Shown: piece after piece, positions 172-47,330 of the stretch
Layout: the number at the start of each line of letters is the position of its first letter
How positions within the stretch are numbered: the first letter of the stretch is position 1
Assembly (NCBI RefSeq): GCF_000003605.2
Contig: NW_003153752.1
Location: 71,603 to 121,940 of the forward strand
Source of the DNA: Saccoglossus kowalevskii
Lineage: Eukaryota; Hemichordata; Enteropneusta; Harrimaniidae
Length of the DNA: 50,338 bases
Direction: 5' to 3'
Notes under the pieces: generated by a model
Database searches by the model: none
Seen by the model: only the letters and a program-made list of their open reading frames with translations
What the model was told of the DNA's origin: nothing
Program-made: the position numbers and the translations under genes

Positions 172-1853
172 TCAGTGGCACGGAAGTGGTAAATAAGTCG
201 TATGCGACAATGCTAATGTTTTCTTAGTTATTAAAAACCACACATGTTTTTGGGTAATTACATGTACTGTGCATAGTTACAATTAGCTCAATACTGTATG
301 TTTGTGATGTCCAAGCCTAGCTAGAAATATTTATATTTATGATTAAAAGGAAACCTTATGTACCATGGGAAGTATAGCTGGAACAAGAATGTACGTATAC
401 CCATATCTAAGGGAAGTGGGAAAGCAGATGTCCTTTTTTGTTTATATTTTCTTCCATAATTTATACCTTGTATAATTTGTCGTAGAACTGTCCTTCACCA
501 GTCGTATTATACATGAAACTGCAATAACTGTGTAAACTGCTATATTACGAAGAGAGCAATGTTCCAGAATATCCAAAAAATAAATTTGCTGAATTGTAAT
601 TGTTTCTCACTAATTATATAAATTATATAATTTACATACACTCTCATAACTCAACAATGTCTAATTCATGATGTAGAGATTGACTATTATTTAATTGTGT
701 ACAGTACCGGCTTCCATATTAAATTAAAAATAAAATAAAATAAAGCTAATTTGTATATTTACGTATCCGTATTCTCGATCACAGGAGATTTGAGTATTGT
801 GTAACGGAAATCAAAACAAAAATATTTTAATTTAAGTTAAATGTTTGAATTATTTGTAAATGTAGTGCCAATCCATATACGAAAATTGGAATAAAACCAT
901 GAAAAGCTAAAGAGAAATGCCATATATCTGAATCCTAGTAATTATTCAAAAAGTAACATTGATAAAGTTATGAATTTGCCACACTGTTCCGTGAGGCATC
1001 TATATTTTCTATGAGTTTAGATATCGCTTGTGTATGTTTTTATATTTACTATCTAAACACTGTCTAATTGACAAGATCCAAAGTTTTAAGGGGAACCACA
1101 AATAGTACTAACCTGTGAAAAGAGAAATGGCGCCATTTAAATAGAAATTCGTTGCCCGAGCTCAGCCCATATCCTACATAGTTTACATTCGTATACGTCA
1201 TATTACGTGATCTGTGAAAACCCGCCAAATTGATTGTTTTCATTTGAATAATTCCTATTTGAACTATTTTGCAACAATGCTTGAAATTAGTATTTGTTCT
1301 ATCTCGGTATTTAAATAATAAAATACGTGGGTCACCGACCTTGTTTTTAAGAAAATCGTGTGTTATATTACGCAGTTGATACATGGAAATGTGATCCTTT
1401 CAAATATGAAGAACATATTTATTATTCACTACCCATAGACCACATAATACACTTGTGGATAAATTTACTCGAAACACCAGAAATGCGATTTCTTGCGCTG
1501 GGAGGTTGTGGTATATAGAAAAAAACTGTTTATTTCATGTACACGACCTCTGCCATGTAGCCATTGCAGCCAGTTTTCCCAATTAACACTTACATTTTGA
1601 AATGTTATCCTTCACAAAAGTTAAGTGATCGAAAATAGTTCAACTGTTGTGATAACGTCAAGTGATAAAATTCGGGAAAAGTATTTGTCAATGCGAAGCC
1701 TCTTACAAGATTGTGCCTGATTGGGTACCCAACCCTAACACCAATCACACCAATCTCAGAGCAGCTTGCTTGTTGACTTTTTTTTCTGAGTTAGAATTAT
1801 GCTTTGACCCAACAAAGTATTTGCTGATAGGTCAAGTTTTAGTCATGCTTTTC

Positions 1854-1891
<38 letters not shown>
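1854..1891. repeat. (AAT)n microsatellite
   Basis: About 12 AAT units. They create a poly-Asn run in a spurious open frame. The mirrored region on the right arm (near 44460-44490) has only a short TTATTAAT stretch. Confidence 0.95.
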
Positions 1892-1892
<1 letters not shown>

Positions 1893-2222
1893 CAACCAAC
1901 CGCTCAGTGCGGCTTAAACTTTAACCTAATTTATGGACATTGTACATTGTGTGTGTGGTATTGTTATTGGATACATATGAAAGCCAATGTCATTTAACAT
2001 GTCCGAGTCGCCATTTACTTCACCAACACTTTTGTCATCAATGTGAACATGTAAGTATTATGAATACTTAACTTGGGTTCAAATAAGTCATATTCCATAC
2101 CGGAGTTGGAAATCACCGCTTACACGAAAGAATGCCATCAATTAGTGTCAATGTATGTTTTGAATGTGTCCGACTCAATACCCGGACTCGCGGTCCCCGC
2201 CTATACGAGAGAATGCCATCAA

Positions 2223-2898
2223 TGTCAGCATCCTTTATTTTATGTTTTTTGCCATATTACCTCAAACCCTGCAAATGGAAGTGTGCACGGAATCATGTGA
2301 AGAAATGGTGTTCATTGCCTTGTGATAACTGTCATAAGGATGATTGACATGTTGTACTTGTTATCGATTCTGGAAGGACAATGAAATCTGCCAGGTGTGC
2401 TTGTAATTTACATAACAAAGGGTGTTTACAACTTTGGAAGGATAATTTGAATCTACTAGGTGTGCTGTTATTTGAATAACAAAGGATGTTTATGATCTAT
2501 TGAGTTGCCTCGGTGACACAGCTACCAACAGTGCCCTCCAGGCTACCAGCGTTCCTCTGCAAGAAGACTCCTGTATTTCTTCGTTGTTTTGTTGCAGAAG
2601 CCATTGACTGTCGTCCAGTATTACATCCTGGAACTGTGAGTTATCACCAATGCACACTTCCCTAAGCAATCCCCCATTTTAGTGACTTTATTCATTGTAT
2701 TTATCTGTGCTTTATTTCTTGTAATTATTTTGAGAGGTATTAAAGCCAAGAGTTTTAACTCGATATTTCGGTGTGTGTATTTCATTACCAGTACTGTCGT
2801 CTTGTCTACCCCATACTAGCAGTGAAAGAACCTCCTTTCCAGTGTGAGTTCTGTGGGTGGCCCTCTCAATTGCGATAAGCAGGCCTTACACTGTGACA
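2223..2898. mobile_element. Solo LTR (676 bp) with target-site duplication
   Basis: Begins TGTCAG and ends GTGACA, giving perfect 5-base inverted ends TGTCA/TGACA. It is flanked by ATCAA (2218-2222) and ATTAA (2899-2903), a 5-base duplication with one mismatch. The opposite arm has the uninterrupted site in inverted orientation (44135-44155, reading GCCATCAATCAGTG on the minus strand). An ATTAAA sequence near 2738 fits an LTR polyadenylation region. No internal retroelement genes are present, so only a recombined LTR remains. Confidence 0.65.
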
Positions 2899-4818
2899 AT
2901 TAATCAGTGTCAATGATTGTGTTCACTGTGACCAACTTAGTACCCGGTCTTATCTAGGGTTAATGTGATCGGCAATATCTGCTGTTATGTGTGAATGTCT
3001 GGAAGTTTGTCATTTTTGTATTTCCAACGGTGTTATACGAGAATTAAAATTAAAATTAAATAATATATAAATATATATATATACTTTTGTTTGTCTGTGT
3101 ATACTTGTTTTTCATAAAACAAACACACTCTACCCGTCTTAAAGTTGAATGACCCAATTGTACCGACTGACACGTGTTAGTATAGTATAGTTAGTTAGTT
3201 TAGCTCCTTTCAAACGACAACCTGTTATACACTGAACAAGCACATGAAAGTGTATCGTCGGCATTCACATAGTTCAATGGTACATGTGTTCATGCATACA
3301 TGTAATCGCTAGAGTTTAGTTTACCTCTGTCAGGTTCAAAGCTGGATTGACATGACAGGTGTATGATTTTCCATGACTGAAAAATGAAATCTTTGTCAAT
3401 ATTTGCGTCAAACATTCATGTCTTAAAGTGGGGGTGTTGTCATCTGCTCATGCGTTAGATGGCCATAGCGTGTCACTGTTTACAGACAAGCGCTACCCAT
3501 GAGCCATGGGCGCGAGCGCAAGTGACGACCATCCCGCTTTAACCAAATCATTGGACTGACCTCAATAAGGTAATACGACGCCAAACAAATATTGTATACT
3601 GTATTGTCTGTGACAAAACAAAGTACTGCAGCAAGAATATACTCAGCTCAAAAAAACAAATGTGTGTTTAATGTACTCGTATAATATCGATAACACATCA
3701 TAATTCTAGATTTTTGTGACACCAAATACACGACTGTCGTTGACCAATTGCATTTGAGTTCGCATGCTATTGCTGTGTCGTTATTGTAAATGTCATTGAG
3801 AAGCAGATTATCTAAAGTTTTGGTTAAATAAATAGTTGGTAATGACCTGTATACGTAAATACGTCATGTGTACACCCACTCAATCTATTTTACTTTTGCC
3901 CATATACTATATAAATCATCTTTCAATAAAATCTTAAACATTGCCTAGAGTACAGTGCACACTTGTGTCATATTTGTCACTAAATATTAGCTTACATGAA
4001 AACTTAGGTAAATAGCTGCTACACATGTGCCGTTTTATGAGCTTCAATGTTTTTAAAAGCTAAAAATTATTTTTTATTAGCGTTTATGACACACCTACAT
4101 TGTGAGACCATGTGGCAAAAGCATGCCAGTTTCCCAGGCACATTAAAAACTTGAGATAGATAAAAACACGTTTTTTAATGCCAGTGGTTAATCAATCTGG
4201 AAGTAAATTATGTCCTAAAAAAATAATCTCGCATGATAAGATCTAATTTAATCATTACAGTGGCGGTGTGACAGATTTTTTCGCGTGGTGTATTTTCATT
4301 GAACCGCAGTTTCAAATTTAAAACAAAAATAATGTTTCTTTACAAAATAGATCAGCGGGATTGGCGTCGTTAGGTATGTGGACCTAAGGGCTATGTGTAT
4401 CTTTTGGTATAATCTTCGATATTTCTTTCAAAACATTGCGAAAAAAAAAATTATTATAAAAATTTAAAAAAAATTATAATCGCTAAATTCCACACAAAAA
4501 TGGATAGTAACACTTACTTACTATAACCACAATTCCCTTAAAGTTGATTAAAGTAATCTAGTCGATAACAATGGATGTCTCTGAATTGATCATGGTTGAG
4601 CTTGAAATCGCAACATTGTCAATGCTGTTGTAGAGTGGATTATTTTTAAAATATTTAAATCGTCCCCTTTTCAAGGAAAAAACACTCTAAAATTATTGTT
4701 ACTTTACCGTCTGAAGGTAATATTGAGCCATTCTTTGACAACTAGATTTTCAACAAATAAATAGTCCTGTTAGTAAACAATGTGTTTTATAAACACTAAT
4801 TGACTAGGCAACATCAAC

Positions 4819-4821
4819 TAT

Positions 4822-4888
<67 letters not shown>

Positions 4889-4890
4889 TT
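4819..4890. repeat. (TTTA)n microsatellite
   Basis: About 18 tetranucleotide units. The following 400 bases are T-rich and yield two spurious open frames. Confidence 0.95.
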
Positions 4891-5826
4891 GGAAAGACAC
4901 ACATATAGCTCGACCACAATTCCTAAATTTTTCCTGATACGATTGACAGCAGGTTACACATTTACCGTTACCAGTAGTGTATGTTTTTCATTGAGGAGCA
5001 AATTTCGATTACACTTGGTTGTAGATTTTGCTTATTTCATAGCGTTTTTCATTTCCTTTGTTTCATTTTATTGTATTTATTATTCTTATCATTTCATTTG
5101 TATTATTATTTTCCATTCTCTGTTCAACTTAATTATTTAGTTTTATATCATTTTTATTTTACCTATTTACTTTCTTTACTCTTGTTTAATATAATACATA
5201 TAATTGAAAATACTAATTATTCTCATGTGATTTTCTCCATTAAATATTTCAATTGTTTTTGTTAATTTTAATTAACTTGATAAATGTTATCAAAACATGT
5301 AGTTGAAATATGTTAATGTTAATTAAAGTAATTGATATGCGCGATGTCTTAGCTAGTACACAGCTAAAGCCTAGGGTAAATGGCAAATTTGTAAATCTGT
5401 AAATTTGAAATCAAATTTAATATAGTATTGTCTGGGTTATATTTGTTCAAAGGCATATGAAAGGCTATGCCATCGATGTGAAATAACACAGTCAATATAA
5501 TTTACGTTATAAACATTTTACCAAATTAACATATGTATTTGCATCAATTGAGGAGTTTCTCAATATATCTGATATTTGAAATTAATCAATAGTAATTCAC
5601 AAACAAGTTAAAAAGGGGTGTACCCTTTGCAGTCTATTAGGGTTCCGATCCAATACACGCAATTGTCTAAATATTGAAATTTAACTTTCATACTTTGAAA
5701 ATACTGCTATGATAATGTTGACATGCAAAGCACAGACTTGGAAAACTTCATCAATCATTTGAGACAATATAAATATTGGACACGGGTGCAACCTAACCTA
5801 ATTTTTTAAAATATCGACTTTATAGA

Positions 5827-5828
<2 letters not shown>

Positions 5829-5857
<29 letters not shown>

Positions 5858-5858
5858 T
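5829..5858. repeat. (TA)n-rich microsatellite
   Basis: Runs of AAATAT followed by about nine TA units. Confidence 0.9.
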
Positions 5859-6849
5859 TTCAGGGCTCTAGACATTTCAACTTAATCTGTGTAAACTTCA
5901 AACTAGTTAGTAACAGTGTCTTGAGGGGCCTTGGTTAAAATACTACGAGCTAGGTGTATAACCATTTTACCCGATATTCACTCGACTGTCGCAGAATGGC
6001 TTTGCAATTAACATGTAATTAATATGTAACACTCTCTGGCCGCCGAGGAGTTGAACTATATTTGGAAACATTTTGATTTCAGGTATGTTTCACGTCATGT
6101 ATGTTTCACGTCATAATATTGCGCGTTTATGTCTGTTAATTGTGGGCGACAGTAGCTAGTACCGATATTACCCGTACTGGTAGAGTTGGGGTGTACACAC
6201 TGCTAGATACCTCACTTCTATGTCGCTGTCACTCGTCGCAATGTGTATGTATATACGGTATATTAGATACAGTTTCATTTCAAGCTAGAATGACGATTAA
6301 AATAATTATTAAATTTGGGTATTCTACGCATCTAAGCTTAATTTGCATAACAACTCCAGTAAATGCGGAACATTCCGTATGTGAACTGGTGGGTGACGCC
6401 AAGACGTTTTGAATAATTAGGGTCGGGAGACTGACCTTATTAGTAAGAATTTCATAAAATTAAGAAGAGTTAATTGGCCGAGTTTTAACGACAATTCATT
6501 TTGCCACGTAAGACATCTTGTCCACGGTACAGCTTGATCTTTTCCAGTTCACTGTAATAGTCAACATTCGATTTCATTCGTCACAGATTGATGACATAAA
6601 TACTCAAATGGCTGATAACTGATCTTTTTCTTTGAACTGTAATGGAAATTTGACATGCGTTGTACACACGGTTCGAGAATCCCGGGGGAACACAAGCTCT
6701 TCTCCGTACTTCTGGATATTTAATTAAACACAGATTGGCCTATAATAGCTTGATCTAATGTTTTTGCGACTAGCTCTGTTTACTTTGTCGGCGAATGTAT
6801 TAATGGACAGTGCGATCACAAAGAACCATAAAGAACCCCGCTAGTTATG

Positions 6850-10620: not shown

Positions 10621-12329
10621 AGATGTACCCATAAACCAATGTTGACAGGAAACAGAAGCATGGATTAGAAGCTAATTTTTTAAAATTACTTTTGACCAAA
10701 AAAGCACATTTTTGTGCACATTTCAAACTACAGTGACCATAACAAAAATACTCAAAAATTTTTAAAATTCATACAATGAGCTTTCCGAAAATATATAGTT
10801 TTGTGGACAAGGGAGGTCATCTTGGTTTGAAACAATTTCAAACAAATTTATTTTTATAGGATAGGTGTCAATTTTTTTTTCAATTGTTAAAACATTAACG
10901 TAGTACATACAATCTGAAAAAGCACCTTTTCTGGCCATGTTAGAGTCAAAAATCGTAGCTAAAACACCATGGGAACTAGAGGAGAAATTGATTGTGTGCT
11001 AACCAATTTAAAATGTTGAAACACCAATATTCTTACTCTTACTAAAGCATACAACGATGGTTTGTCAGAAAACACACAATAGAATATTGGTTAACAATTG
11101 ATGCTCATCACCATCAGTCAAGCAGTGTGTTGATATACAATCCACATTTCACTGTAAGTTGATATTTAAATATTTCTGTTGAATACCTATGCTATACAAT
11201 ACAATATATTCATCTTGACAGCAGCAGGTAGTTCTTTAAGTCCAAATAAACATGGTAATTTATGAGGATACGATGTTGTGAGGGTGCTATATGATGTACG
11301 ATATTACGTCATACATAAGCGGGTGGTGTAATTATTTCACCCTATAGAATCAATTTTACAATTTCCAGTCACCGAAAAAATATTTCGTTTTAATGTACTG
11401 TGAATGTTTAATAGTAAATTTACAATTGTTCGTCCATGCTACTGAATAGTGGTTGTTGTCCCTTCAATCAATAATGCAATATATATTTTGTCATGTTCAT
11501 TGGACAATGACTTTTTTTAAATGAACCATTGAACAGGTGTATATCAGGGAATACAAAAAATCAATGTCATTACTATGTTATATAGAAACAGTGAACGTGA
11601 CAATTTAATTAATTCACCAGTTGAAGGTCCAATTTTGCAATAATGTGACAGTGCATTTACTTCTCTAATGAAAAACTAATTTTACCAGTTTAAATAAAAA
11701 CATACATATATCAACGTCATACGACCACGCACGATAGGTGGAATAGGTTAAAGGGTAATTTAAGTTTACATTCGAATGTTGATTGGGTCGGGCTTGATGC
11801 AACAACTATTGAAATCCAAAGTAATATTTCAAAAAGCTATCAGAAATGTTATAGAGCATGCAATACAAAATAATTGTGAAGAAAAACAAATGTAACGAAA
11901 AAATAGGTTTGGAATATCTTGTGCTAAGCATTTTTCAAATTGTTTTAAAAGGACAAGCTAACAAATCCAAACATTGTATACTTTACTTTAAATTATTATC
12001 TTGAATGTCAAAGGAGTATTCAAGATTTATTCAGGTTTATTCAAATCAAAACTTTTACAATAATGCCATTGAAGGTGGACAGTAATGTACAGAAAATGTT
12101 AGTACATGGGATTAACACATCCGGTACACACCACTATAATTTACACAGAATTCCGAATTCTCTACAGGCTTACAATTTGGAACCTATAAATTCACAATGA
12201 TTCTGCTGTATTTGCAAATAAATATATTGAAATGAAGCTAATCCTTATTTTCTACCGCAGGTGATCTGAATGATGTATAAGGGAGAAATTTGTTATATTT
12301 ATATTTATTTAAATATATCCTTATACTAT

Positions 12330-12614
12330 GTTGCTCAATTAAATTTACTTGACGTATATGTATTTGTCGACTTATCTGTAGCAGCCATCGTTATTGTTAT
12401 CATTTTATTATGTTACAAATAGCTGTAGATGAGTTAGCCTGTATTGATTATCATCATTTACTTGGAGCGCCATCATTTGGTCTATTTCAAACAAAAGTCA
12501 ACGGAAGAGTCATTTAGTTTTGAAATCTGGGCCAGTGATCAAAGATTTTTTCACCACATATTCATTCTGTTTATTGCAGGCACTGTACATTATTACTTAA
12601 CACTAATAACAATA
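12330..12614 (+). promoter_or_regulatory. Conserved 5' region of gene A, with likely 5' UTR intron acceptor
   Basis: This stretch aligns in inverted orientation with about 39825-40080 upstream of gene B. Both copies keep a pyrimidine-rich tract followed by AG (12578-12579 in A; TTGTAG in B) about 35 bases before the start codon, suggesting that a non-coding first exon lies further upstream. Small indels put the upstream open frame of A and B out of register, which argues against translation beginning earlier. No clear TATA box or NF-kB site was identified. Confidence 0.4.
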
Positions 12615-14423
12615 ATGCCGAATAGCAAACAGGATCCACGAGACAATGGGGAGCTTCATCGATGCACCAGGTGCGAGCAAATCCTCAGAAGCCCGGTGCC
12701 AACATCTTGTGGGCATAGGTTTTGTGAGGCGTGTCTAAGAGTTCTGGCAACTCCTAGGTAAACATAGGATTTGATTTGTATTTTGTTATGCACATTAAAT
12801 GTTTCATTATGGCGTTCCCTAGTACTTGTTTACCGTGTTATTACCTAAAGACTGAGTTATAATATTCTTTATTTTAGAATGCCTGGTAGACCTCTATGTC
12901 AGATATGCTCAGATGATGGTGTAGCTGAAGATTTCACGCAGTGTGATTTAGCTCAATCAATGGTGTGTATAACGAAAACCCCATGGTTAACACGATATGT
13001 ATTGACTGCTTGCTTAGTACTTGTATAATCGTACTATGTATATTTCTAATGTATCGTTTACTATTCAGATGAAGTCTTTTTCGTTGTGTTACATATATAA
13101 TACATTCTTTACTTCAACTTCCAATGTTTTCGGGCCTGATTGAGTTCATATTTTGAACATTCATAGGACGCATGTGCACGCCCGTTCTAGGTCATGGTTT
13201 GATTCAAGTTATCTGATGCATAGTCGTTGAACAATTTACCAAAAGCAGGCATTTCATCCTTTTGTAACCTGATGCATGTAATGATTGATCAAACTTTTTG
13301 AATAACCTGTCGCATACAGTCACAGCATTTGTCTCATGTACACATTTAATCCTGTATATTTTTGTAATTGCATGGTCCATGTACATTACCGACCACATTT
13401 TTTGACCACATACATATTAAGTTTATGTTTACTTTAAGCTACAGAACATGCAAAGAAGTTGCTCGACTACTTACAGGCTGAATAGAGAGGAATTGAAGAA
13501 AGGATTTAGGGTGGCAAATGAAAGTACGCGAAACAGAGTTCGATTAGAAGAGATATGGGATCAGATTGAGAAGATGGAGCAAAGGGCTACAGAGCTAGGT
13601 GCTTTATTGGAAAAATATAGGAGAACGCATACATACAAACGCAAACTACAAAAAGAACTAGCATCCCTTGAAGAGAAAATCCAAATATTAGAGGATAGTC
13701 TTCGATTAACAGATAGTATTTTGGAATCGCAGGACCGAAAGATGGTCAAGCAAGAAGAACGCCTGCGTGTATTAGAAGAAAATCCGCCAAGCTTTGATGG
13801 GAAAATGATTTGGAAGATAACTGGTGTCCAGCAACATTGCGACGACGCACGTGACAACAATGCATCACTGACGTCTCCGTGTTTTTACACAGGCCAGGAA
13901 GGGTATAGAATGTGCGTTAGATTATATTTGAATGGAGATGGAATTGGTAGTGAAAGCCATTTGTCACTATATCTAATTCTTCAGATGAATGACCTCGATT
14001 TTTTGCTACCCTGGCCTTTCCAACAACAGGTATTGTTTACATACATAACCTAGTGAATTACTATAGCTACAAAAATGTTTTCTATATTGTGTTGAGGTCT
14101 ACCATGACACACGAGTCAAACAATTTTACATAATGTTTATACCATGAGAACAAACAAATAATATTACGTATTTTCCTTGTATTCTGTAGGTTACTTTTAC
14201 TTTGAAGGATCTAGATCACAGTGGTAATGATATCGTTGCAATGTACATCCCCGATCCATCAAGTGGACATCGACCGTCGCCAACTAATGACGTGACCACT
14301 CTGCCTGGCTGTCCACAGTTTATGAAGTTAGAAGATTTTGAAGCCGAATACGAGCGATACGTGAAAGAAAATACAATGTACATTAAAGTTGAAGTTGATG
14401 GGTCAAACAGACTTGCAGACTAA
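12615..14423 (+). CDS. TRAF-like protein A (RING-coiled coil-MATH), four exons
   Basis: Probable TRAF-family signalling adaptor and E3 ubiquitin ligase of the cytoplasm. Exons by GT-AG splicing: 12615-12757, 12878-12962, 13445-14029, 14190-14423; total 348 residues. Residues 17-58 form a C3HC4 RING: CTRC, then SCGHRFCEAC, then LCQIC encoded across exons 1-2. Residues about 90-190 are charged and heptad-like (coiled coil). From about residue 193 (FDGKMIWKITG) runs a TRAF-type MATH domain with GYRMCVRLYLNGDG, SHLSLYL and LLPWPF hallmarks, ending in exon 4 with LPGCPQF. No TRAF zinc fingers lie between RING and coiled coil, unlike most TRAFs; TRIM37 also joins RING and MATH but has a B-box. The MPN start is chosen because a conserved acceptor (AG at 12578-12579) lies just upstream and the upstream frame is not shared with gene B, suggesting a 5' UTR intron. 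It is the mirror copy of gene B. Confidence 0.85.
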
Positions 14424-32100: not shown

Positions 32101-33280
32101 NNNNNNNNNNNNNNNNNNNNNNNNNNNNNNNNNNNNNNNNNNNNNNNNNNNNNNNNNNNNNNNNNNNNNNNNNNNNNNNNNNNNNNNNNNNNNNNNNNNN
32201 NNNNNNNNNNNNNNNNNNNNNNNNNNNNNNNNNNNNNNNNNNNNNNNNNNNNNNNNNNNNNNNNNNNNNNNNNNNNNNNNNNNNNNNNNNNNNNNNNNNN
32301 NNNNNNNNNNNNNNNNNNNNNNNNNNNNNNNNNNNNNNNNNNNNNNNNNNNNNNNNNNNNNNNNNNNNNNNNNNNNNNNNNNNNNNNNNNNNNNNNNNNN
32401 NNNNNNNNNNNNNNNNNNNNNNNNNNNNNNNNNNNNNNNNNNNNNNNNNNNNNNNNNNNNNNNNNNNNNNNNNNNNNNNNNNNNNNNNNNNNNNNNNNNA
32501 TTGTAAAGATGGATGATGGTACACACCCACTGCGTTGCCATGCGTCATTATTGACAAAGATAATCCATGCCAAAAGTCTCATAACAAATCTAAAAGATGC
32601 CGAGCTTGCTGCAAAGGCAAAATATATCCAGGAGCTTGAGATGTCAAGTTATAATGGTGAATTTGTGTGGATGGTCATCCGTGTTTCTGAGATGAGCAAT
32701 GTAACACCCACTGAGCGAATGTCTCCTAATTTCTATATATGCAAATGTGGTTACAAGATGTACGTTAAATTAGATATGACCTGCACTGGAAGAACTATCC
32801 AGATGTCTCTATGGTTACATCTGATAGACGGCGAATATGATGACGATCTACCATGGCCATTCAAACAGAAGGCAAGCATTAAATGCTACTTTTTATGTTT
32901 AACATTATAATCAAACAATTGGAAATTGTATGCGTTTTTCTTCGATACATTTGAAAGTGTAAAACAAAATTTTGAAACAGAAGTCTACTGGGAATTATAC
33001 TATACCTTGCAATTACAGGAACTATGACAGTTTTATGAGAACCTTATATAATTATTCTCATTTTTATTTCCATATCTAGGTAACGTTCATGTTATTGCAC
33101 CAAGGTGGAGAAGACCACACTGTAGAGTCGTTTATTCCACGGCAGAATACAACTAAGGATATCCCACACAGTTGTCCAGTGTTCAATCACTTAGAAATTC
33201 AGTTAGATGACAAACGATATATACAAGACGATATACTATTTTTTAAAATCGTTGTTGACGTACAAAATGTAACAAAGTAG
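29126..33280 (+). CDS. TRAF-like protein C (RING-TRAF zinc finger-MATH), interrupted by gap and in-frame TGA
   Basis: A third TRAF-family gene, with fuller architecture. Supported exons: 29126-29265 (RING start: CGYC, then YCGHRYCRTC), 29700-29772, 29950-30048 and 30337-30396 (one TRAF-type zinc finger: DNAVKREL, RC-x4-C, LWSGHLQDYE, NHFNDCP), then after the N run 32500-32871 (short helical linker plus MATH: YNGEFVWMVI, GYKMYVKL, LPWPFKQK) and 33080-33280 (VTFMLL, SCPVFNHLEI, stop TAG). All visible junctions are in phase. Exon 32500-32871 ends in a GC donor (AAG|GCAAGC); the others are GT. In exon 2 the codon at 29728-29730 is TGA where genes A and B have the second Cys of the last RING pair. 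This could be a recent nonsense mutation, a sequence error, or a sign of pseudogenisation; the MATH exons show no other damage. Exons may be missing in the 32078-32499 gap. Confidence 0.72.
32078..32499. other. Assembly gap (422 N)
   Basis: An unsequenced run inside gene C, between its zinc-finger exons and its MATH exons. It lies close to the symmetry point of the innermost inverted blocks (about 32020-32090). Open frames that cross it are artefacts of N translation. Confidence 0.98.
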
Positions 33281-35079
33281 CAACCTATACGTGTCTTGCT
33301 TCTCTGTTTTTATTCAAGATAAAGATATATTATTATATTTACTCGAAGGATATATCATTTGTACATTCATTGGTTGCAGGTAATGTTAAATATTAAGTCT
33401 CTTATATTCAGTGAATTCCAATATTCAGTCAATGACTAATATGTCATCAAATATTGAATGATCAAAATATATCATATTATTCACAGGTAGCGTTCATTAC
33501 TGTCGAACATTTTATTATTGTTCATTGTGTGTTTAGAAACAAGGCATTTAAGCCCTAAAGCATATACATATCCGACCCATCGTATAATTCTTGCAATGCA
33601 GACCTTGAAAGAATCCATCCTTGTATATGATTCAGTGATTGATTGTTGAATCACTGGTAGGTCATAGAAGTTCGGTGTAGACTAGTGAGAATCTTTCATT
33701 AATGTGTGTGATTTTGGGAGAACGCAGACACAGTAACACAGCCCTGAAACAAGGTTTCCAAATATGAACTGTATTTGCAAATTAAGTTCTGAATCAACAC
33801 AACGATTTTTAAATGCATAAATTAGTTACAACAGTTTTCAAATATAGCACAGGGTGTTGTTTATTTCACATACCATGGCAGTTTGAAGTAGTATATATTA
33901 TGTATCGTGTTATACCATTCAAGTTCAATAACCATTTGAAGGCAACATAATGATTTTGATTCATTATAGAAATGCATCCTATACCTAGGTTCCAAAAATA
34001 AACATATTTTGCAATCACATTAGAGTAAACTAACGCTAATAGTTGTCCGTACAGATTAATATGTATTGTTTAGTATGTTTTGAATACACGCGCACAGATA
34101 TCAATATATGTGTTACTTTATTCATTCACAGGCCTGAATAAATACGAAACGAAGGCAAACCAGAAAAGAAATCGGAATGATTTTAGTATGAGCTTGATTA
34201 AAGTCACTGTAATTTGTAATTTGATTATATGAAACTAACAACAGAGCCAGTGCTATGAACAATTCAACTTTTTCGAAATAGTTAGGAAAACAATGATTCT
34301 AAATTGCCAATCCCTCAAACACTTCATTACTAATTATAGTCACAATAGTTTATAAAACAGTTTATAATATTTATTTATTTATTGTTTGTCTCATTTATAA
34401 TTCTGCAGCTATACTGTACACCGTAAAGTAACAAAGTGAAACCATGTGTGTCACGACCTCCAGGGCGAGGAGGATCAAGGCGAACCTACTTACAATATTT
34501 TGTCTGATTGGCTACTGAGCCCTAACACATGACAGTCAGACCAATCAGCGGGAAAATTCTTCCTTGCATATATGCTACGCACCAACGAGTGGTGTAGAGA
34601 AGAGTATAGCAACAACTGATCATTATGTGATTAACATTTCAAAATGTCATATTTGTGCAGGTATTAAACATTGAGTAGCCATGGTGATTTTAGTGTGACA
34701 GTTACACTTATGTCTCAAGCCCGAACGCTCCCCATTGAACCCCCCCCCCCATCGGCGGCCGTTACACGCATGGCTTGACATTTTAATCCACGTTGTACAA
34801 TTGAATTATAAATCAGTCGAAGGAAAAAATATAGTTAAGAAACTGGCTGTGATATGCCTGCACAACAGGGGGATTCAAGTTGTGGTAACCCAGTTGTCGT
34901 CCTTTTCAGCCAAATATAGGTGTATTTTATTGTGTACATGGGTTCCAGACACAAATAATCTTTTGTATTTTTACCCTCTGTCATTACATAACAAAGCTCT
35001 ACGACAACACTAAGACTTTTGGGTCAGCGAAACATCATGGCTTGTTTCATAGTACTGCCGACTTATGTTCACAGCTGTA
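33281..35079. other. 3' flank of gene C within the spacer
   Basis: No gene was recognised. It contains the possible solo LTR at 34449-34700 and a C-run at 34740-34749. The 92-codon frame at 34735-35013 has no known motif. This flank has no mirrored counterpart left of gene C. Confidence 0.5.
34449..34700. mobile_element. Possible solo LTR
   Basis: Begins TGTCACGACC and ends TAGTGTGACA, giving 6-base inverted ends TGTCAC/GTGACA, with an ATTAAA motif near 34663 and a TATA-like ATATATGC near 34570. No matching target-site duplication was found (ATGTG and GTTAC flank it), so the boundaries are uncertain. Confidence 0.3.
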
Positions 35080-36350
35080 GGATTAATTAAATGCACATGC
35101 ATGCATGTCCAGTTCATTAATGGAATCAAATACAGCTACAACTACGACTACGGTACTAATCTTCATTCCATGTGCTGTAGTATTTAGCCTGAAACCCACC
35201 GTTTTGATGTGCATTGAATTTCGAACGCCGAGTAACACTAAAGTGAATGTCAACTTTATAGGGCTAAAACTACCCTGTATTATTGTGGGTCTAGTTTCTT
35301 TTGTTTCATCTTGAGTGCGAAATGAACTCATCAAGTGCAGCCAACGTACAATGTACAGCACATATTCCTGACAAGAGGGGGAATTAAAATCTGCCATTCG
35401 ACGACAAGGTTGAACCGTTAACTCCGCCAGTTTCGGTCATTAATTAGAGGCAGTGGTGAGAATTGAGAGAATGCCTGTGATTTACACGGGAGATGCATTA
35501 CACAACTTAATAATCGACTGGCAATTAGCTAAGAATAATAATATTAATAAATTATTATTATATTATTAATAAATTATTATTATTGAACACATTTCTAAAT
35601 CGTTTTGCAGATATCAGATTGTCGTTACTTCTATATTGTCAGTGGTACATGTCGTACTATAAAGCATACTGTTATAAGAAGGTGATGTCTGTCATTATAT
35701 ATGTGCTAGGCAACCCGAATTTTGATTGACGCGAGTGTTGACCCGTAACATTTTGGCATTTATCCAGTTCGTTGATCTCGTTTTATAGTTTGTCCACTAG
35801 GTGACTCACGTGATCCTTTCGGCGGTAAACACCTCAAATATTTTATCGACATTGTTTAAACTTGTTCGACACAGAATTTGTCGCAGTATGGAACCATAAT
35901 ATCACTTGAATTATGAAATGAATGTGGTTCAATGGTTAAAGTTTACTCTTAAGGTGGGTGCACGAGTGTCCACAATTCAGTACATTTGGTTCAGTACATG
36001 AAGTTTAGTACAAGGTGTGGTTTCGTACACGGAATATACAGCATGTTTGAATTGAATAGTATCTGTTTAAAAATCACTCAACGAAAGATTATTTTTGCCA
36101 TGTTGTTAGTGTAAGGTAGTCTGATTGCAATTCTGAAACCCGACATTCTACATACCTATATACTAATATACTGCAGTAACTTAAATCTGTTTAAACCACC
36201 TATATACGAATATACTGCAGTTACTGTAACTTAAACCTGTTTAAACCGAACCATTTGTTAACGTAATACCAAGCTAAACCCCTATTTTATTTCCTCACCG
36301 ATTTGTCTAGAGCATAAAGAGTGTTAGTCACGGGGTCAACGACACTCGGC
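35080..36350. repeat. Inner right block of the inverted duplication
   Basis: Mirror partner of 27890-28965; identity is roughly three quarters by eye, with indels. It includes an AT-rich imperfect hairpin of AAT/ATT repeats at 35532-35584. The short open frames on both strands are not preserved in the partner. Confidence 0.72.
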
Positions 36351-36599
36351 AAGGTAAATACTGGGCGTTGATACCTCTTCGAGTAAGCTCTAAACGGCAT
36401 TCCATAGACTTCTTAAATATGCTGTTATGATGTATGTGTCTGTGTACAATCAACCAGACATTCACAGAAAGGCAACAGTGACAGAATATATAATAGGTCA
36501 AGCAAGCGTACTATACTATAAATAACTTTTTGAATCCCGACTTTACTCTCGTGACAGTCGAAACAGTGCACTCGATTGGTGAATGCGATTACATATTAT

Positions 36600-37270
36600 C
36601 AATATTTAGTTACGTTGATTGTATTGTCAGTTTGTGGTAAACTTTCCGAAATACCGGTTTCCATGATTTCACGCTATCAGTAATTGCTGTAAAGCATTCT
36701 AGTAGATGTAATTTCTGCACACATATTAAAGCCTGGTATTTTATAGCTAACGTCTTCCAAAGGCTTTGCTCTGACAACACACACATATCCATGAACATAA
36801 TCGAAAACATTCAGTGCATCAATTAATTTAAGTCTGACAAATTTCACTAGTTACTAATTTAACAGTGTTGAAGTATGAAATTATTCAGTTGTTTGGTAAT
36901 ATTACGTCAGATATTCATGTCAAGAAATGCCGATAAGTATATTTCACAACAATAACAGCTCATCACGGTGTGCTTGACTGACTGACATGCTTTTGCAAAA
37001 CAAAAAGCGCGGGTCTTTAGTTCTCCATGATTAGTTACGCCATTCACTATTTGTAAAGGCGGGGAATGCTTTTTAAATGTATATGTCTGTGAACTTGTGT
37101 ACACATTTAGTAATTTGAAACAGCTAAATCGCCACTGTAAATCATTTATCCTTAGATCAACCGATGTTTGATTAGGACTTATATACGGGGTGAAATATAC
37201 AGAGCTACATTTGTCCACTTCTACCACACTATACATTAGCCTGTACTCCGAGGTCAACAGGTGTTTCCCG
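36600..37270 (-). repeat. Dispersed element R1, copy 3 (5' part)
   Basis: Inverted match to the first half of R1: GCGCGGGTCTTTAG at 37007 mirrors the CCCGCGC block, and the segment near 36720-36800 mirrors 21530-21610. It pairs with copy 1 through shared flanks. The short open frames here come from the repeat. Confidence 0.55.
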
Positions 37271-37968
37271 CTGATGTAATCATACATGTTTGTACGTTTG
37301 TGCAATAAGTGTATTTGTATGTGTTTCTCTTAACGGATTGTCTGCACTAATTGTGTAGCCGACGTATTTTAGATAAAACACTGTTCTAAATCGAATTTTC
37401 TCCAATTGACAATTACTTAACATACTTGCAAAACATGATCGCATTTAAACTGTTGACTTTTATAGTCATGGGTCCAAGAAACACTCACGTTGCAGTGTTA
37501 ATGGTAACCTACTTACATGACAGACATGATACTTATCGTGTTGGATAACAATATAATGTAGCATTATGAGGGATATATAGAAAGATGGCGTTTTATATGA
37601 ACGGTTCATACTATTATCAAACTCCTAGTAGTAATCAGAATACCATATTAACCTATGACCTTCTCATGGTGCATATGCTATATTTTAACGCTTGGCCAGT
37701 AAGACTGCCTCCGATGTGTTCTGAAGACATTGCTGCTTGAAATACTATATTTTTTGAAAACGACAAAAGCTTAATTTAGAGGTGCGTTCTAACCTTCGAA
37801 CATAATGTGAAGCTAAACCAATGATGTCGCATACGTAGTAGCTGGGATCAGCAGTTTTAATATAGATGGAATAGCTACAGAAACATATTCAGCTCTCAGT
37901 TTACAACTTAATGGAAGATCTTTTATTAATCAAATTCAAATTGAAATAAAATTGAAATATTAAATATT
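37271..37968. other. 3' flank of gene B
   Basis: AT-rich, no gene seen other than the candidate polyadenylation signal for B. It does not align with the flank of gene A. Confidence 0.5.
37922..37927 (-). terminator. Candidate polyadenylation signal of gene B
   Basis: AATAAA on the minus strand, about 42 bases downstream of the gene B stop codon, in an AT-rich 3' flank that is not shared with gene A. A position so close to the stop would give a very short 3' UTR. No equally good signal was seen just after the stops of genes A or C. Confidence 0.3.
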
Positions 37969-39824
37969 TTATCTAAGTATATTTGACTTATCAACTTCAA
38001 CTTCTAAGTACATTGCATCTTCTTTAACGTATCGCTCGTATTCGGCCACAAAATCTTCTAACTTCATAAACTGTGGACAGCCAGGTAGAGGGATCACGTC
38101 GTTAGTCGGCGACTGTTGATGACCAATTGGTGGATCGGGGATGAACATTGCTACGATATCATTACCACTGTGGTTCAGATCCCGCAAAGTAAAATTAACC
38201 TACAAAATACAAGAAAAATACGTAATATTATTTGTTTCTTCTCATGGTATAAATAGTATGTAAAATGTGTTGACTCATGTGTTAAATCATAGTAGACCTC
38301 CACACAATATAGAAAACATTTTTGTAACTATAGTAATTCACTAGGTTATGTATGTGAACAATACCTGTTGTTGGAAAGGCCAGGGTAGCAAAAAATCGAG
38401 GTCATTCTTCTGAACAATTAGATATAGTGACAAATGGCTTCCACTACCAATTCCATCTCCATTCAAATATAATCTAGCGCGCATTTTATACCCCTCGTGG
38501 CCTGTGTAAAAACACGGAGACGTCAGTGATGCATTGTTGTCACGTGCGTCGTCGCAATGTTGCTGAACACCAGTTATCTTCCAAATCATTTTCCCATCAA
38601 AGCTTGGCGGATTTTCTTCTAATGCACGCAGGCGTTCTTCTTGCTTGACCATCTTTTGGTCCTGCGATTCCAAAATACTCTCTGTTAATCGAAGACTATC
38701 CTCTAATATTTGGATTTTCTCTTCAAGGGATGTTAGTTCTGTTTGTAGTTTGCGTTTGTATGTATGCGTTATCCCATATTTTTCCAATAAAGCACCTGGC
38801 TCTGTAGCCCTCTGCTCCATCTTCTCAATCTCATCACTTATCTCTTCTAATCGAACTCTGTTTCGCATACTTTCATTTGCAACCCTAAATCCTTTTTTCA
38901 ATGCCTCTCTATTCAGCATGTAAGTAGCCGAGCAACTTCTTTGCATGTTCTGTAAATGAAAGTAAACATATACCTAATATGTGTGTGGTCAATAAATTGA
39001 TTGGTAATGTAGATGTGTACAGTCGCCATGCGTTTACAACAATATATAGCATTAAATGTGTACACAAGGTAAATACTATCACTGATAAATGTATGCGACA
39101 GGTTATTCACCAAGAGCAATCATTACACGAGTGCCTTGCATCAGGTTACAAAAGGATGGAATGCTGCTTTTGGTAAATTGTTCAACAACTATGCACCAGA
39201 TAACTTGAATCAAACCATGACCTTTAACGTGCGTGCACATGTGTCCCATGAATGTTCAAAATATGAACTCAATCAGGCCTGAAAACAAATACTAATTTTC
39301 GCTAACATTGAAAGTTGTAGTAAAAAATGTTGTATATATGTAACACAACGAAAAAGACTTCATCTGAATAGTGAACAATATACATTAAGAGTATACATAG
39401 TAGGATCATTCAAGTACTAAGCAAGCAGTCAACACATATCGTGTTAATCATGGGATTTTCGTTATACACACCATTGATTGAGCTAAATCACACTTCGTGA
39501 AATCTTCAGCTACACAATCATCTGAGCATATCTGGCATAGAGGTCTACCAGGCATTCTAAAATGAAGAATATTATAACTCAGTCTATAGGTAATAATACG
39601 GTACACAAGTACTAGGAAACGCCATAATATAATGAATCATTTAATGTGCATAACAAAATACAATTCATATCCTTTGTTTACCTACGAGTTGCCAGAACTC
39701 TTAGACACGGCTCACAAAACCTATGCCCACAAGATGTTGGCTCCGGGCTTCTGAGGATTTGCTCGCACCTGGTGCATCGATGAATCTCCCCATTGTCTCG
39801 TGGGTCTTGTTGCCTATTCGGCAT
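37969..39824 (-). CDS. TRAF-like protein B (RING-coiled coil-MATH), inverted paralogue of A
   Basis: Same four-exon structure as gene A on the opposite strand: 39824-39682, 39556-39472, 38949-38365, 38199-37969; total 347 residues. Exons 1-3 have identical lengths in A and B (143, 85, 585) and all GT-AG sites are conserved. The RING reads CTRC, SCGHRFCEPC, LCQIC, so all zinc ligands are intact; there is an additional Cys at SDDC where A has Gly. The coiled coil and MATH domain (FDGKMIWKITG, LYLNGDG, SHLSLYL, LLPWPF, LPGCPQF) match A. By eye about 47 of 347 residues differ, so it is a diverged paralogue with an open frame. Homology to A includes introns and about 250 bases upstream but stops at the stop codon, where the last residues also differ. 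Likely role, as for A: receptor-proximal ubiquitin signalling. Confidence 0.84.
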
Positions 39825-40869: not shown

Positions 40870-43179
40870 GTCATGCTCAAAACAGTGGTGACGTCATCCA
40901 TCAGTTGCGTGTGTCACGTTAACATTCGGAATTTTACGCTTTTACTCGCGCATCCGATTTACTGAACCGGTTATTATGAAAACTAAGTTCAGATGCGTAG
41001 AATAAGACGACGAACAGCGACATAGAAGTGAGATATCTAGCAGTGAGTACAAACCAACTCTTCCAGCAGCACGTCTCATAATGTCGCTTCTAGCTACTAT
41101 CGCTCACGATTGAAAAACATAAACGGCTAAATTGTTTGATTACGACAAACTGATCCGAAAAATTCAAAGTGTTTTCAAATATAGTTCTCGGCGACCAGAG
41201 AGTGTTACATATCTTAATTGCAAACCCATTCTGCGACAGTCATGTGAACTTCCAACACACCTAGCGTGTAGCATTAATACCTCCCCCCCCAAAAAAAAAA
41301 ACACTAATACTACACCGTTTAAAGTCTATACAGGTGTAGTTGCAATGTTCATATTCATGAAAATATATACATACACAAGTAGACGCTGCTGAACAATTAC
41401 ACAACACTGTATAAAACAGTAAATGCCAGGCATCAACAAAATAATAACCATATATATACACTTATTAAAAATAGAAATCTTGCTTGTCTTACTCAAATTA
41501 ATGATGGCAGTGCCAATAATATTTCTGAATTTCATTTCACAATAGTCGATGCATAGTTAAAGTGGAATAGATGAAATGTTGCAAAATATACAAAATATAA
41601 AACTGCCAGAAAAAAAAACATTTATCGAGTGAATTAAAGAACAAAAACAGTTGAAAACAATGAAAATAATTAAATGGAGAAAATTGTATGCGAATAATTA
41701 TTATTATTATACATTTGTTTCAACACAATTGCGTTGGTCTGTGTGACGAGGGAGAACAACCTGTGATTTAGTTTTCATGATCTGCTTTCGCGTTGTTAGA
41801 TTCTCTGTTATTTAAAAAAATGTTGGGGATTATACCAAATAATACTCACAGTTGTTAGGTCCGCGTACCTGAGGACTGCAATCTCGCTTATCCATTTTGT
41901 AAAGAATCATTATTTTTTGTTTAAACTGCGGTTCAATGAAAATACGCCACGCAAAAGAACTGCCACACCGCCACTGTAATGACTGAATTAGTTGTTATCA
42001 TGCGAGAAGAAAATAACCGTTATATTAGGTATCACTCATGGGAGATTATTTTTTAGGGCATAATTGACTTCCAGAATGCTTAACCACTGGCATTAAAAAA
42101 CGTGTTTTTATCTGTCTAAAGTTTGTACCGTGCCTGGAAGACTTGCTTGCTCTTGCGACTTTGTCTCGTATTGCAGGTGTGTTCTAAACGCTAATAAAAA
42201 ATAAATTACTAGGCTTAAATAAGCTTTAAAGCCATAAAACGTTACATGTGTTGCACATGTAGGGAGTAACATAAATCAAATGTTTGGCGATCAGTCGAGT
42301 TGATTGGTAACCTTAGATGCATTGCCAGTAAGTTGTTTTCCCCCTATAAGTACAGTGTATATAGTGGATAGATATCACAGATAGATCTGGTCAAGCACAA
42401 AGGAAAAGTCAAGTCAAACGACATAATGCTCCCAGATGAAATATATATTAACAGTGGATATGATGTCATACACCCATAATCCTTTGCTGAAGAACCAAGA
42501 TGGTGTACTACATAAACTGATGAGAAGTTGAATATCTAGAGAAGGAAAAGTGATATAAAAAAAAAACTGTAAATAACATTTGCCAAGCTCTTTCATCTGG
42601 GTGTATAATGTTGTTAGACTTATCTTTCACTTTAATTGCATGTTTTATATTTCGTGCAGGATTTCATGATATCTGGAGCTATTTATCTAAGCGACAATGA
42701 ACAATCAAAGCTACAAATTATTACATACCTGTATGTTTTCATGTAAGCTAATATTTAGTGACAAATATAACACAAGTATACACTGTACTCTAGGCAATGT
42801 TGTTAAAGATTTTGTTGAAAGATAATATATTTATATAGTATATATGCAACAGTAATGTAGATTGAGTAGATTCTGAGAGAGTGGGTGTACACATTACGTA
42901 TTGTATTATACAGGTCATTACCAACAACATAAACTGCTTGACCAATTGACACATAATTTGAGTACCTTATACGATGAACATAAATGTAGTTGACTGTGTA
43001 ACTCAGACCCAGTGTCGGATACTGCACTTATAAGCACCTTTTATAATACACCGGCATGAAAGCAGATGTGAACACGATAATTAAATATAACCGAATACAT
43101 TAAATAACACTTGATAATTGTTTCACAACTAAATGACATAGAAGTATTCTTTAGTTTGTAATACAAACATGTCAAATAT

Positions 43180-43210
<31 letters not shown>

Positions 43211-46200
43211 TGTATTTATTTATTTATTTATTTACGAATAAAGTAAACACACGTTGTATATTATTGAGGTTTGTTATAAGGATTTTCGGAATGAGCGAGT
43301 CTAATTATTCAATATACGATACATCAACAACAAACATTATAAAAAAAATAAACAGGTCTCCTCAATACCAATAGCCCAGTGATGCTAATTGCATTGAAGG
43401 GTGAAGCACCACTACAAAAAGAGGTGACACTGTATACACCATGACTATTTGAACAAAGCAATACTGTTAGCGTGATAGGTTAGCGCGTTCCTGACACGGT
43501 CGGTTGATGGACAGAAAATAGAGAAAAAAATTGGTTCTTTTTGAGTATATTCTTGCTGTAGTACTTTTGTCATAAATATACACTACTTGTTTGGCGTCGT
43601 AACACTGTATTAAGGCCAGTCCAATGATTTAGTTAAGACATGAATGTTTGACGCAATGATTGACGAAGATTTTATTTTTAGTCATGGAAAACATACACCT
43701 GACATTTCAATCCAGCTTAGAACCTGACCGAGGAAAACTCAACTCTAGCGATTACATGTATGTATGAACATACGTACCAGTTAACGTACCTTGAAATGTA
43801 TAGTTATGCGAATGGCAACGATACACTCATGTGCTCGTTGTTGTTTGAAAGGAGGTACATATACTGACACGTGTCAGTCGGTACAATTGGGTCAGTCAAC
43901 TTTAAAACGGGTAGAGTATGCTTGTTTTATGAAAACCAAGTATACACAAACGAAAAAGTATATATATAATATTTAATTTTAATTTAATAGATTAATTTAA
44001 ATTCTCGTATAACACCATTAGAAATGCAATAAATGAAAATCGTTCAGACATTTACACAAAACAGCAGATATTGTCGATCACAAAACCCCTAGATAAGACC
44101 GAGTACTAAGTTGGTCACAGTGAACACAATCATTGACACTGATTGATGGCATTCTCTCGTATAAGGGGGAACGCAAGGCCGGGTATTGAGTCAGACACAT
44201 TAAAAACACACATTAACAGTGATTGATGGCATTTCCTCGTATAGGCTGCGATTTCCAACTCCGGTATGGAATGTTGGCGAATGTGACTTACTTGTACCCA
44301 AGTAAAGTATTTATAATATTTTCATGTTCACATTTGTGTTTGGACAAAAGTGTAGTTAAACAAAGTGTATCACGGACAATGGCTTTCATAGTTGAGTAAA
44401 ATATCCATTCAATAATAATACCCCACAATGTGCAATGTTCATAACTTAAAGTTTAAACTGAGCGGCTGGTTGTTTATTAATAAAAAGCCTATCGTGACCT
44501 ATCAGCAAATACGAAGCATATTTCTAACCCAGAAAAAAAAATGTCAACAAGCAAGCTTCTCTGTGATTGATCTGACTGTCATTTGTTAGGGCTGGGTACC
44601 CAAACAGGCAGAATCTTGTAAGAGGCTTCGCATTGACAAATAATATTCCCGAGTTTCATCACTTGACATTATAACAACAGTTAATCTCGTTTGTCAAGTT
44701 CATAAACCGACAAAACTATTTTCGATCAAATAATATACATTTGTGTATGTTGTTTACCCCATTTTTAATCCATTCATACACTATGTCTGTTAATTTTATG
44801 AAGGATAACATTTCGAAATTTACGTGTTAGTTGGGAAAATGGCTGCATTGGCTACACAGCAGAGGTCGTGTACATAAAATAAATAGCTGTTCCCATATAC
44901 CACAAGTTCCCATTGCAAGAAATCACATTTCTGGTGTAAATTTAAGTGTATTATGTGATTATTGGTAGTGAACACTTCGCAATAACAATAAACTAGATCA
45001 GTAAATATGTCTGATTACTGTTTTTATATTTGAAAGTATCACGTTTCCATGTGAACAAGGTCGGTGACCCACGTATTTTATTATGGAAATACAGAGATAA
45101 AACAAATAATATGTTCAAGCATAGATGCAGAACAAAATATTCAAATAAGAATTATTCAAATTAGAGCACGCAATTTGGCGGGTTTTCACAGATCACGTGA
45201 TATGACGTATACGAATGTCTAAACTATGTAGGATATGGGCTGAGCTTGGGCAACGAAGTTGTACATAAATGGCGACAATACACATTTAACAGGTTAGTAC
45301 TATTAGTATTTCCTCCTCAGAACATCTTGCCAATTATACAGTGTTTGGTTAAGATTGTAAATACACAACATACACAAACGATATCTAAATTTGTAGAAAA
45401 ATATCGATGACTCATGGAATAGTGTGGTGAATTCATAAGCCTATATTAATGTTACTTTTTTGAATAATTACTAAGATTCAGATATGTGGCATATTTCTCT
45501 TTAACCTCTCATGGTTTTATTCAAATTGTCTTACAATTATCGTATATGGATTGGCACTATATTTAAAAATAACTCAAACGTTTAACTTAAGTTGAAATGG
45601 CGACTTTGGCGAGACAAATTCTACGAAATACGGAGGAATTCTCAGAAATAAGGTCAGACACATGACCTGTATAATTAATATCACTATAACAACGCATGTG
45701 ATGTCATACAGCGTTGCCATAGTTCAACACAATTCATCAGATTTTGTTTTAGAATTCTTTTGTATTGGCGAATGCAGTACCGTTACTACTAGAATATTAT
45801 CATAAGTTCCGCATAATCTGAAAAATAACAAATATAAGTGATTGAAGATGTATACACATAGTCGCGATGCAGTTGTTTTATATTCTACTTCATTAATAGA
45901 CTAAGTATATCCCATAGCGCTAGTTCATGTCATGTTAATTAACCTAGTTAATTAATCGTGAACAAATATTCGAAATATTTGTACAAAAACATAATGTTTT
46001 CAAACATATTTCAACTGCTCGACTGCCAGTCAATATATGTATGAATTGTAGCAAACCGCAGTGGGACGAATCGCATGTTAATGAGCAAAATGGCTTACAC
46101 CGCTCCGGATATAACGATTTGTAATTAACAGCTCACATAATTTAATTGAACATTCAAATTTATATATTAATTTGACCATTTTACTTTAGTGTTAACCTGG

Positions 46201-47330
46201 GTGGTTTTAATGTATAACTACCCACACTCTGAAAATACTGTATGATCTAACGGCTATCACTATAAGAAACAGGTGACAAACGTCTAGTTTGAAAAGCTCG
46301 TGGTATGTGGCTAAGAATGAGATTATATGCAAGGATACTACCACGCCCAGCAGCAAATGATGTTGATCAAACTTAAATTAGTAAAATAAGGAGATATTAA
46401 TTACGCACAAAACAAGTTAATAATGTATTCGGTCAATGTTTATATACCAATATTATTATATATGATCTGCAGAAAAATTAAACTATTTCACAGTATTTAT
46501 CTAGTACTTATTACTTTTTGTATTGAAGGAACCTTCGTGATATAAACTAAACTGCAGTCGAACGTCACACTTTTCAACGTCGCCATGGAAGTTTTGCAGC
46601 ATTTACGTGCTATTATTTTAACAGAGAAATGCGAGTCGTAATTTACTCTGTGATAACGTTAAGCATTCAAATATTATAATGAGAGATACGGGTATTTGTT
46701 TACATTGTCTCGGGGTGGATACGGATATGGAAAACAAATTAGCTTCATTTTATTTTATTTTAATGTAATATGGAAACCGGAACTACTGTACACAAGTAAA
46801 TAATAGTTAATCTACATCATGAATTAGACCTTGCTGAACTATTGTGTACAAAATAACAGCATGTAAATTATATAATTAATATATGTAGTTAGAAGCAATT
46901 GAATTGTTTTAATTTAGCAAATTTGTTGTTGTTGTTTTGTTTTGGGGTTATTCTAGAACATTGCTTTCTTGTTAATATAGCAGTTTCATGTATATTACGA
47001 CTGCTGAAGGACAGTTCTACAATTTATGACAATAGGTATAAATTATGGAAGAAAATATAAAACAAAAAATTACATATATTCATATATTTAGACATATACA
47101 TATATTCTTATTCCAGATATACTTCCCATGGCACATAAGGCTCCCTTTTAATTATAAATATAAATATTTCTAGCTAGGCTTGGACATTACAAACATACAA
47201 TGTTGAGCTTGCTAATTGTAACTATGCAATACATACGTTTACCGCACAGTGCATGTGATTACCCAAAAACCTGTGTGGCTTGTCGCCAGCATACTCTATA
47301 ATTTTATATAACTAAGAAAACCTTAGCATA
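40870..47330. repeat. Outer right block of the inverted duplication
   Basis: Mirror partner of 205-6420. It holds no recognisable gene. Its outer end lies near 47330, next to an R1 copy; the left partner ends near 205, so the boundary is close to the window edge and cannot be judged fully. Confidence 0.75.
43177..43234. repeat. (TTTA)n microsatellite, right arm
   Basis: About 14 units with one TGTA interruption. It is not at the mirrored position of the left-arm TTTA array. Confidence 0.95.

Follow-up and report, generated by a model that had tools for sequence, protein, structure and literature searches.

A worn inverted duplication with mirrored TRAF-like genes in Saccoglossus kowalevskii

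We analysed a stretch of 50,338 nucleotides from the hemichordate Saccoglossus kowalevskii (contig NW_003153752.1, positions 71,603 to 121,940 of the forward strand; the whole stretch is called the window), which carries three TRAF-like genes of the immune-signalling type. Two of them, A and B, lie in the opposite arms of an eroded inverted duplication and the third, C, lies in the spacer between the arms. A first-pass annotation had described the locus as a large, eroded inverted duplication whose arms carry mirrored TRAF-like genes, and this description is confirmed by a self-comparison of the window with blastn and by a single mirrored chain of 11 of the 21 inverted high-scoring segment pairs (HSPs). 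The blocks of the two arms mirror each other in order, genes A and B retain intact reading frames and GT-AG introns, and divergence between the arms is uneven along their length. We consider an old inverted segmental duplication within a local cluster of TRAF-like genes, with both copies kept in frame, to be the likely origin of this arrangement.

The TRAF-like genes

Gene A is on the forward strand and consists of four exons separated by GT-AG introns, with an intact frame of 348 amino acids. Gene B, on the reverse strand, is its mirror image, also with four exons, GT-AG introns and an intact frame, of 347 amino acids. The genes occupy matching positions in the arms and both point inwards. 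The two proteins share the domain order RING, coiled coil, MATH. The Pfam family TRAF3_RING scored 27.5 bits in A and 27.2 bits in B (cut-off 26.9), and the TRAF MATH family PF21355 gave E-values of 2.8e-30 and 2.3e-29, respectively. In the PDB sequence set, the nearest match of gene A is TRAF1 (E 5.7e-42), followed by TRAF3 (7.1e-38), TRAF5 and TRAF2, and these matches extend into the coiled coil.

A Pfam scan detected no TRAF zinc fingers in the spliced A or B proteins, and none was found in 16 open frames of at least 28 amino acids that overlap intron 2 (8 of A and 8 of B). According to PMC3697994, the TRAF family is defined by its C-terminal TRAF domain, which comprises a coiled coil (TRAF-N) and a beta-sandwich (TRAF-C/MATH), and most members also have an N-terminal RING (TRAF1 being the exception) followed by a variable number of zinc fingers. 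Both A and B have the C-terminal domain. Because the published definition rests on this domain, while zinc fingers are undetected, we refer to the genes as TRAF-like. Their domain content suggests that the proteins would serve as TRAF-type adaptors and, possibly, as ubiquitin ligases.

The proteins differ at 47 of 347 residues and the coding sequences at 70 bases; over exons 3 and 4, 232 of 271 residues are identical. We counted a single indel event in the 1044 coding columns of the gene block, versus 13 in its 1040 non-coding columns (Fisher p 0.0018). Neither gene contains a premature stop, whereas scattered substitutions would be expected to produce 3.2 (probability of none, 0.035). Because the frames have been kept in this way, both copies are probably in use, under weak constraint.

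Gene C (29126-33280, forward strand) is a third and more distant TRAF-like gene. The first-pass annotation had placed it alone in a spacer of 6.1 kb, and we found it there, the spacer measuring 6.2 kb between the innermost HSPs. Over the coiled coil and MATH, 56 of 189 residues are identical to A and 55 of 189 to B (about 30%). The first RING exon of gene C ends in the same codon phase as exon 1 of gene A (AG before the intron), and its MATH is split at the place that matches gene A. Together, these correspondences suggest an old common gene structure. A zinc finger is likely encoded at 29950-30048, and scans of a few frames revealed no exon for the second half of the RING. The exon that carries the first half of MATH ends in LPWPFKQK and is followed by GCAAGC (both within 32848-32877), such that splicing of the MATH intron would need a GC donor.

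Another element overlaps the gene C region. A THAP-domain fragment (PF05485, E 1.3e-7 at 49665-49961) lies within 49201-50182, and an inverted partial copy of this region, in three HSPs, occupies 31235-32076 and ends at the assembly gap. The pair is probably a transposon relic.

Mirrored blocks and arms

A default self-blastn of the window already revealed the mirrored structure, with 15 HSPs that form one reverse-collinear series. At higher sensitivity, the search returned 21 inverted HSPs, the strongest at 1751 bits. Nineteen of these exceed 47.9 bits, which is the best of the four matches obtained in a control search of the window against its own non-complemented reverse. The single mirrored chain of 11 HSPs was equalled by 34 of 20,000 random orders; a tighter rule, discarded as too strict on overlap, leaves 7 HSPs, not above random orders (mean 6.8). 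Two further HSPs (5192-5314 and 5671-6302) are compatible with the order, except that on the right side each overlaps a chain member by more than the rule allows. The remaining 8 lie outside the chain and include 21122-21503/36770-37145, 34475-34573/44537-44636 and the three between 31235-32076 and 49201-50182.

From the outside inwards, the mirrored order runs from 233-6302/40940-47283 through gene A/gene B to 27257-28902/35112-36872. The four mirrored blocks of the first-pass annotation were all recovered by self-blastn close to where it had drawn them, and the gene block could be refined to 12304-14423/37969-40108, with identity falling at both of its ends in the arm alignment. One of the four needs qualification: the block given as 16290-17060/36600-37270 is indeed mirrored (16172-16759/36778-37811), but part of it is a local repeat, because a further copy is found at 21.1-21.7 kb. 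A short match between 28941-28985 and 35059-35103 (score 153 versus 143 for the best of 60 shuffles) suggests that the arms may extend slightly inward beyond the HSPs, close to the ends of 28965 and 35080 proposed earlier. Two local alignments that were barely above shuffled sequences, 6303-9300/45598-46715 (148 versus 139) and 233-3426/45598-46715 (165 versus 164), were not used.

The arms are unequal in length, the left measuring 28.7 kb (233-28902) and the right 12.2 kb (35112-47283). The left arm has three stretches of extra DNA (6.3-12.3 kb, 14.7-16.2 kb and 16.8-27.3 kb). The last of them contains a 157-base tandem satellite of 5.2 copies (22552-23360) and a diverged direct duplication of about 4-5 kb, which pairs 16407-17533 and 20372-20922 with 21147-23522 and 24564-25015. 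The extra DNA also holds a direct repeat at 10000-10604/18090-18676 that is 73% identical. Another direct repeat, at 36702-36882/47522-47704 (75%), belongs to a dispersed element, and 21487-21611 matches its second copy in inverted orientation.

The window as a whole has a GC content of 35% and contains intron-split genes and microsatellites; by gene content it is animal-like. ARAGORN found no tRNA in the window, and no Rfam family reached its gathering score there. Megablast gave no match to plasmid records. When the exon 3 frame was compared with bacterial and archaeal genome contigs, none of 62 pattern matches was confirmed, and the same was true of 11 pattern matches in viral contigs. The absence of relatives in these sets is as expected, because the DNA is animal-like.

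Table 1. Positions of the mirrored blocks, the TRAF-like genes and the assembly gap in the window.
Feature	Position	Strand	Remarks
Outer block, left arm	233..6302	+	Reversed homologue 40940-47283; blastn identity 61.7-81.0%; K2P 0.09-0.18 (homologous columns)
Gene A block: 5' flank, 4 exons, 3 introns	12304..14423	+	Mirrors 37969-40108; 91.8% over 2084 aligned bases
Gene A exon 1	12615..12757	+	Start codon, first part of RING; GT-AG, open frame; Pfam TRAF3_RING
Gene A exon 2	12878..12962	+	Second part of RING
Gene A exon 3	13445..14029	+	Coiled coil and first half of MATH
Gene A exon 4	14190..14423	+	MATH (second half) and stop codon; more synonymous divergence from B than in exons 1-3
Inner block, left arm	16172..16759	+	Mirrors 36778-37811; part repeated at 21.1-21.7 kb
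Innermost block, left arm	27257..28902	+	Mirrors 35112-36872; K2P 0.20-0.22
Spacer with gene C	28903..35111	.	Between innermost HSPs; edges approximate; 6.2 kb
Gene C exon 1	29126..29265	+	First part of RING; TRAF3_RING E 6.8e-9, 35.7 bits; then GTACAT
Gene C likely zinc-finger exon	29950..30048	+	TRAF2_zf E 0.019, below Pfam cut-off; TTGCAG before, GTGAGT after
N run (assembly gap)	32078..32499	.	422 N within gene C region
Gene C coiled coil and first half of MATH	32500..32871	+	MATH E 6.6e-14; 5' part lost in gap
Gene C last exon with stop	33080..33280	+	MATH E 0.038, weak; ATCTAG before
Innermost block, right arm	35112..36872	-	Inverted HSPs
Inner block, right arm	36778..37811	-	Inverted HSPs, mirrored chain
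Gene B exon 4	37969..38199	-	Stop
Gene B exon 3	38365..38949	-	Mirror of gene A exon 3
Gene B exon 2	39472..39556	-	Mirror of gene A exon 2
Gene B exon 1	39682..39824	-	Start codon
Outer block, right arm	40940..47283	-	Self-blastn HSPs

Uneven divergence and the history of the arms

We computed Kimura two-parameter distances (K2P) between the arms on columns called homologous, a choice that lowers all of the figures. The blocks within 233-4014 gave 0.088-0.118, the upper value being that of block 824-2259 (0.118; 0.098-0.141), and those within 4017-6302 gave 0.175-0.179. The non-coding DNA of the gene block stands at 0.080 (0.064-0.098) and the inner blocks at 0.17-0.34, with 0.171 for the block at 16.3-16.8 kb. 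Overall, the outer blocks and the gene fall at 0.08-0.18 versus 0.17-0.34 for the inner blocks, so that the two ranges touch. An earlier picture, in which Fisher tests set the 2.1 kb gene block apart as a conserved island with sharp edges between arms that are 45-65% identical, was rejected because the fine profile showed that the low arm figures stem largely from forced alignment of non-homologous stretches. Restricted to homologous columns, the outer arm comes close to the gene block in similarity.

The assembly itself must be considered at this point. The 422-base gap in the spacer, which the first-pass annotation had not mentioned, adjoins a repeat whose other copy is at 49201-49307, which would suit an artefact in which two haplotypes, or unrelated contigs, were joined head to head across the gap. 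We regard such a join as improbable: arm distances of 0.08-0.34 and the 47 amino-acid differences between A and B are large for alleles, and gene C seems to bridge the gap without changing strand, with its RING and likely zinc finger before it and its MATH after it.

When the profile of non-coding identity is divided once, the best change point falls just past the gene, and different thresholds place it at 14583 or 16172. With 116, 111 and 102 of 148 chunks passing the three identity thresholds and the others dropped, this change point was reached by 0, 1 and 0 of 2000 permutations. At the loosest threshold, identity is 0.857 before it and 0.762 after it. By region, the outermost blocks stand at 0.857-0.866, the stretch at 3.5-6.3 kb at 0.802-0.851, the gene block at 0.904 and the inner blocks at 0.762-0.794. 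The non-coding identity of the gene block (90%; 940 of 1040) exceeds that of the outer blocks by a modest margin (Mann-Whitney p 0.018-0.031) and that of the inner blocks (p below 1e-6). In the flank immediately beyond the stop codon, 14583-14673/37876-37968, identity is about 67% (score 151, versus 110 for the best of 60 shuffles). Within the gene, synonymous differences between A and B amount to 11 in 48.8 sites of exon 4 versus 8 in 168.5 sites of exons 1-3 (p 0.0005), a six-fold step between exons 3 and 4, and non-synonymous differences to 21 in 179.2 versus 30 in 644.5 (p 0.0013); exon 4 was picked for these tests post hoc, after inspection of the profile.

Arm-to-arm gene conversion could have been the main force behind this pattern, such that the arms are old and parts of them, above all the genes, have been homogenised since. 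The change point just past the gene, the low identity of the flank compared with the non-coding DNA of the gene block, the excess of that DNA over both outer and inner blocks and the rise of synonymous differences in exon 4, which non-synonymous differences share, would all fit such a history. However, the choice of exon 4 followed the data, and the comparison draws on two sequences only. Nor does the profile contain a clean step, because the distances at 4.0-6.3 kb are about the same as that of the inner block at 16.3-16.8 kb, and the gene block is close to the outer block 824-2259. We hold conversion as the leading cause to be possible but on balance unlikely. A history of two events, in which an older inverted repeat left the inner blocks and a younger inverted duplication brought the outer blocks and the gene, with no conversion, would likewise match the lower distances of the latter parts, and the window holds a further copy of the inner block. 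Yet the blocks fall in a single mirrored order, the step does not coincide with a visible junction but falls in or close to the final portion of the gene, and the distances of outer and inner parts meet. This two-step history, too, seems to us less likely than not.

A conversion tract that ends near the last exon and two duplication ages could each fit the step, which stands on an uneven background. The first-pass annotation had suggested that exchange between the arms may homogenise the copies; the uneven divergence and the step at the last exon are in keeping with this idea, but they are equally open to a history of two ages. Nothing indicates that exchange is ongoing. The arms are not near-identical, as those of a conversion-maintained palindrome would be, since they differ by 0.08-0.34 and contain large unmatched stretches. 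In a more specific proposal, which we rate as improbable, the RING and coiled-coil exons of this zinc-finger-less pair would be homogenised by conversion while the last exon, with half of MATH, escapes, leaving two proteins with a shared effector end and different partners. If the step between exons 3 and 4 were a true conversion boundary, recombination would spare half of the partner-binding domain, and such sparing would offer duplicated adaptors a way to diverge in specificity.

Under the old inverted duplication that we favour, a segment of about 12 kb or longer with one compact gene (RING, coiled coil, MATH) would have been copied in reverse orientation, and the inverted copy would have been placed on the other side of gene C. 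The A and B frames would then have stayed open, while the non-coding DNA eroded through substitutions, local repeats and insertions, the last chiefly in the left arm unless the right arm lost DNA instead. The outer blocks and the gene up to about intron 3 may have been homogenised by conversion, or they may be younger than the inner part.

Several observations weigh against this duplication. The clearly homologous columns between the arms sum to 6194 aligned positions (about 6.2 kb), which is a limited extent, and 40109-40939 has no match in 6303-12303 above shuffled sequences (score 125, versus 155 for the best of 60 shuffles). Part of the inner blocks has its further copy at 21.1-21.7 kb and a segment of the outer block recurs in the spacer (34475-34573 with 44537-44636), so that mobile elements may account for some blocks. 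With the N gap interrupting the spacer, the connection between the arms depends on scaffolding, and all statements on divergence and conversion compare only two arm sequences from one genome. Finally, omega between A and B is 0.71 with a bootstrap interval of 0.42-1.32, and thus does not demonstrate constraint.

Comparison with known systems

Like TRAF proteins of the TRAF1/2/3/5 type, A and B have a TRAF2/3/5-type RING, a coiled coil and a MATH (TRAF-C) domain; unlike them, they have no detectable TRAF zinc fingers between the RING and the coiled coil. Among the literature matches listed, judged by titles and abstract openings, none described a zinc-finger-less TRAF that combines RING, coiled coil and MATH, which is not proof of absence. 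The layout departs from the published TRAF descriptions compared here, but it may be known from other papers. The family itself varies in size, with 24 members reported in amphioxus versus seven in humans (PMC7179693).

The first-pass annotation had called the palindromic structure unusual, a view that is not supported, because 77 of 143 young intrachromosomal gene duplicates in humans are reported to be inverted (PMC4546093). In the same report, 26 of 184 human duplicate pairs carry signatures of conversion. Long inverted gene pairs are also described from Caenorhabditis elegans and its relatives, where they are thought to be kept alike, perhaps via conversion, and one of these pairs has degenerated in C. 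briggsae (PMC1803023). The present locus is mainly an ordinary case, with a structure of an already known type, and it exemplifies how inverted duplication can enlarge a cluster of signalling-adaptor genes whose copies later erode. As in the reported human and Caenorhabditis duplicates, opposite-facing gene copies lie in arms of shared non-coding DNA in which conversion may have acted. In two examples from C. elegans, the intergenic arms show 95.7% and 100% identity and are separated by spacers of 126 and 414 bases (PMC1803023), whereas the arms of the Saccoglossus locus are worn and unequal and enclose a third related gene in a spacer of 6.2 kb.

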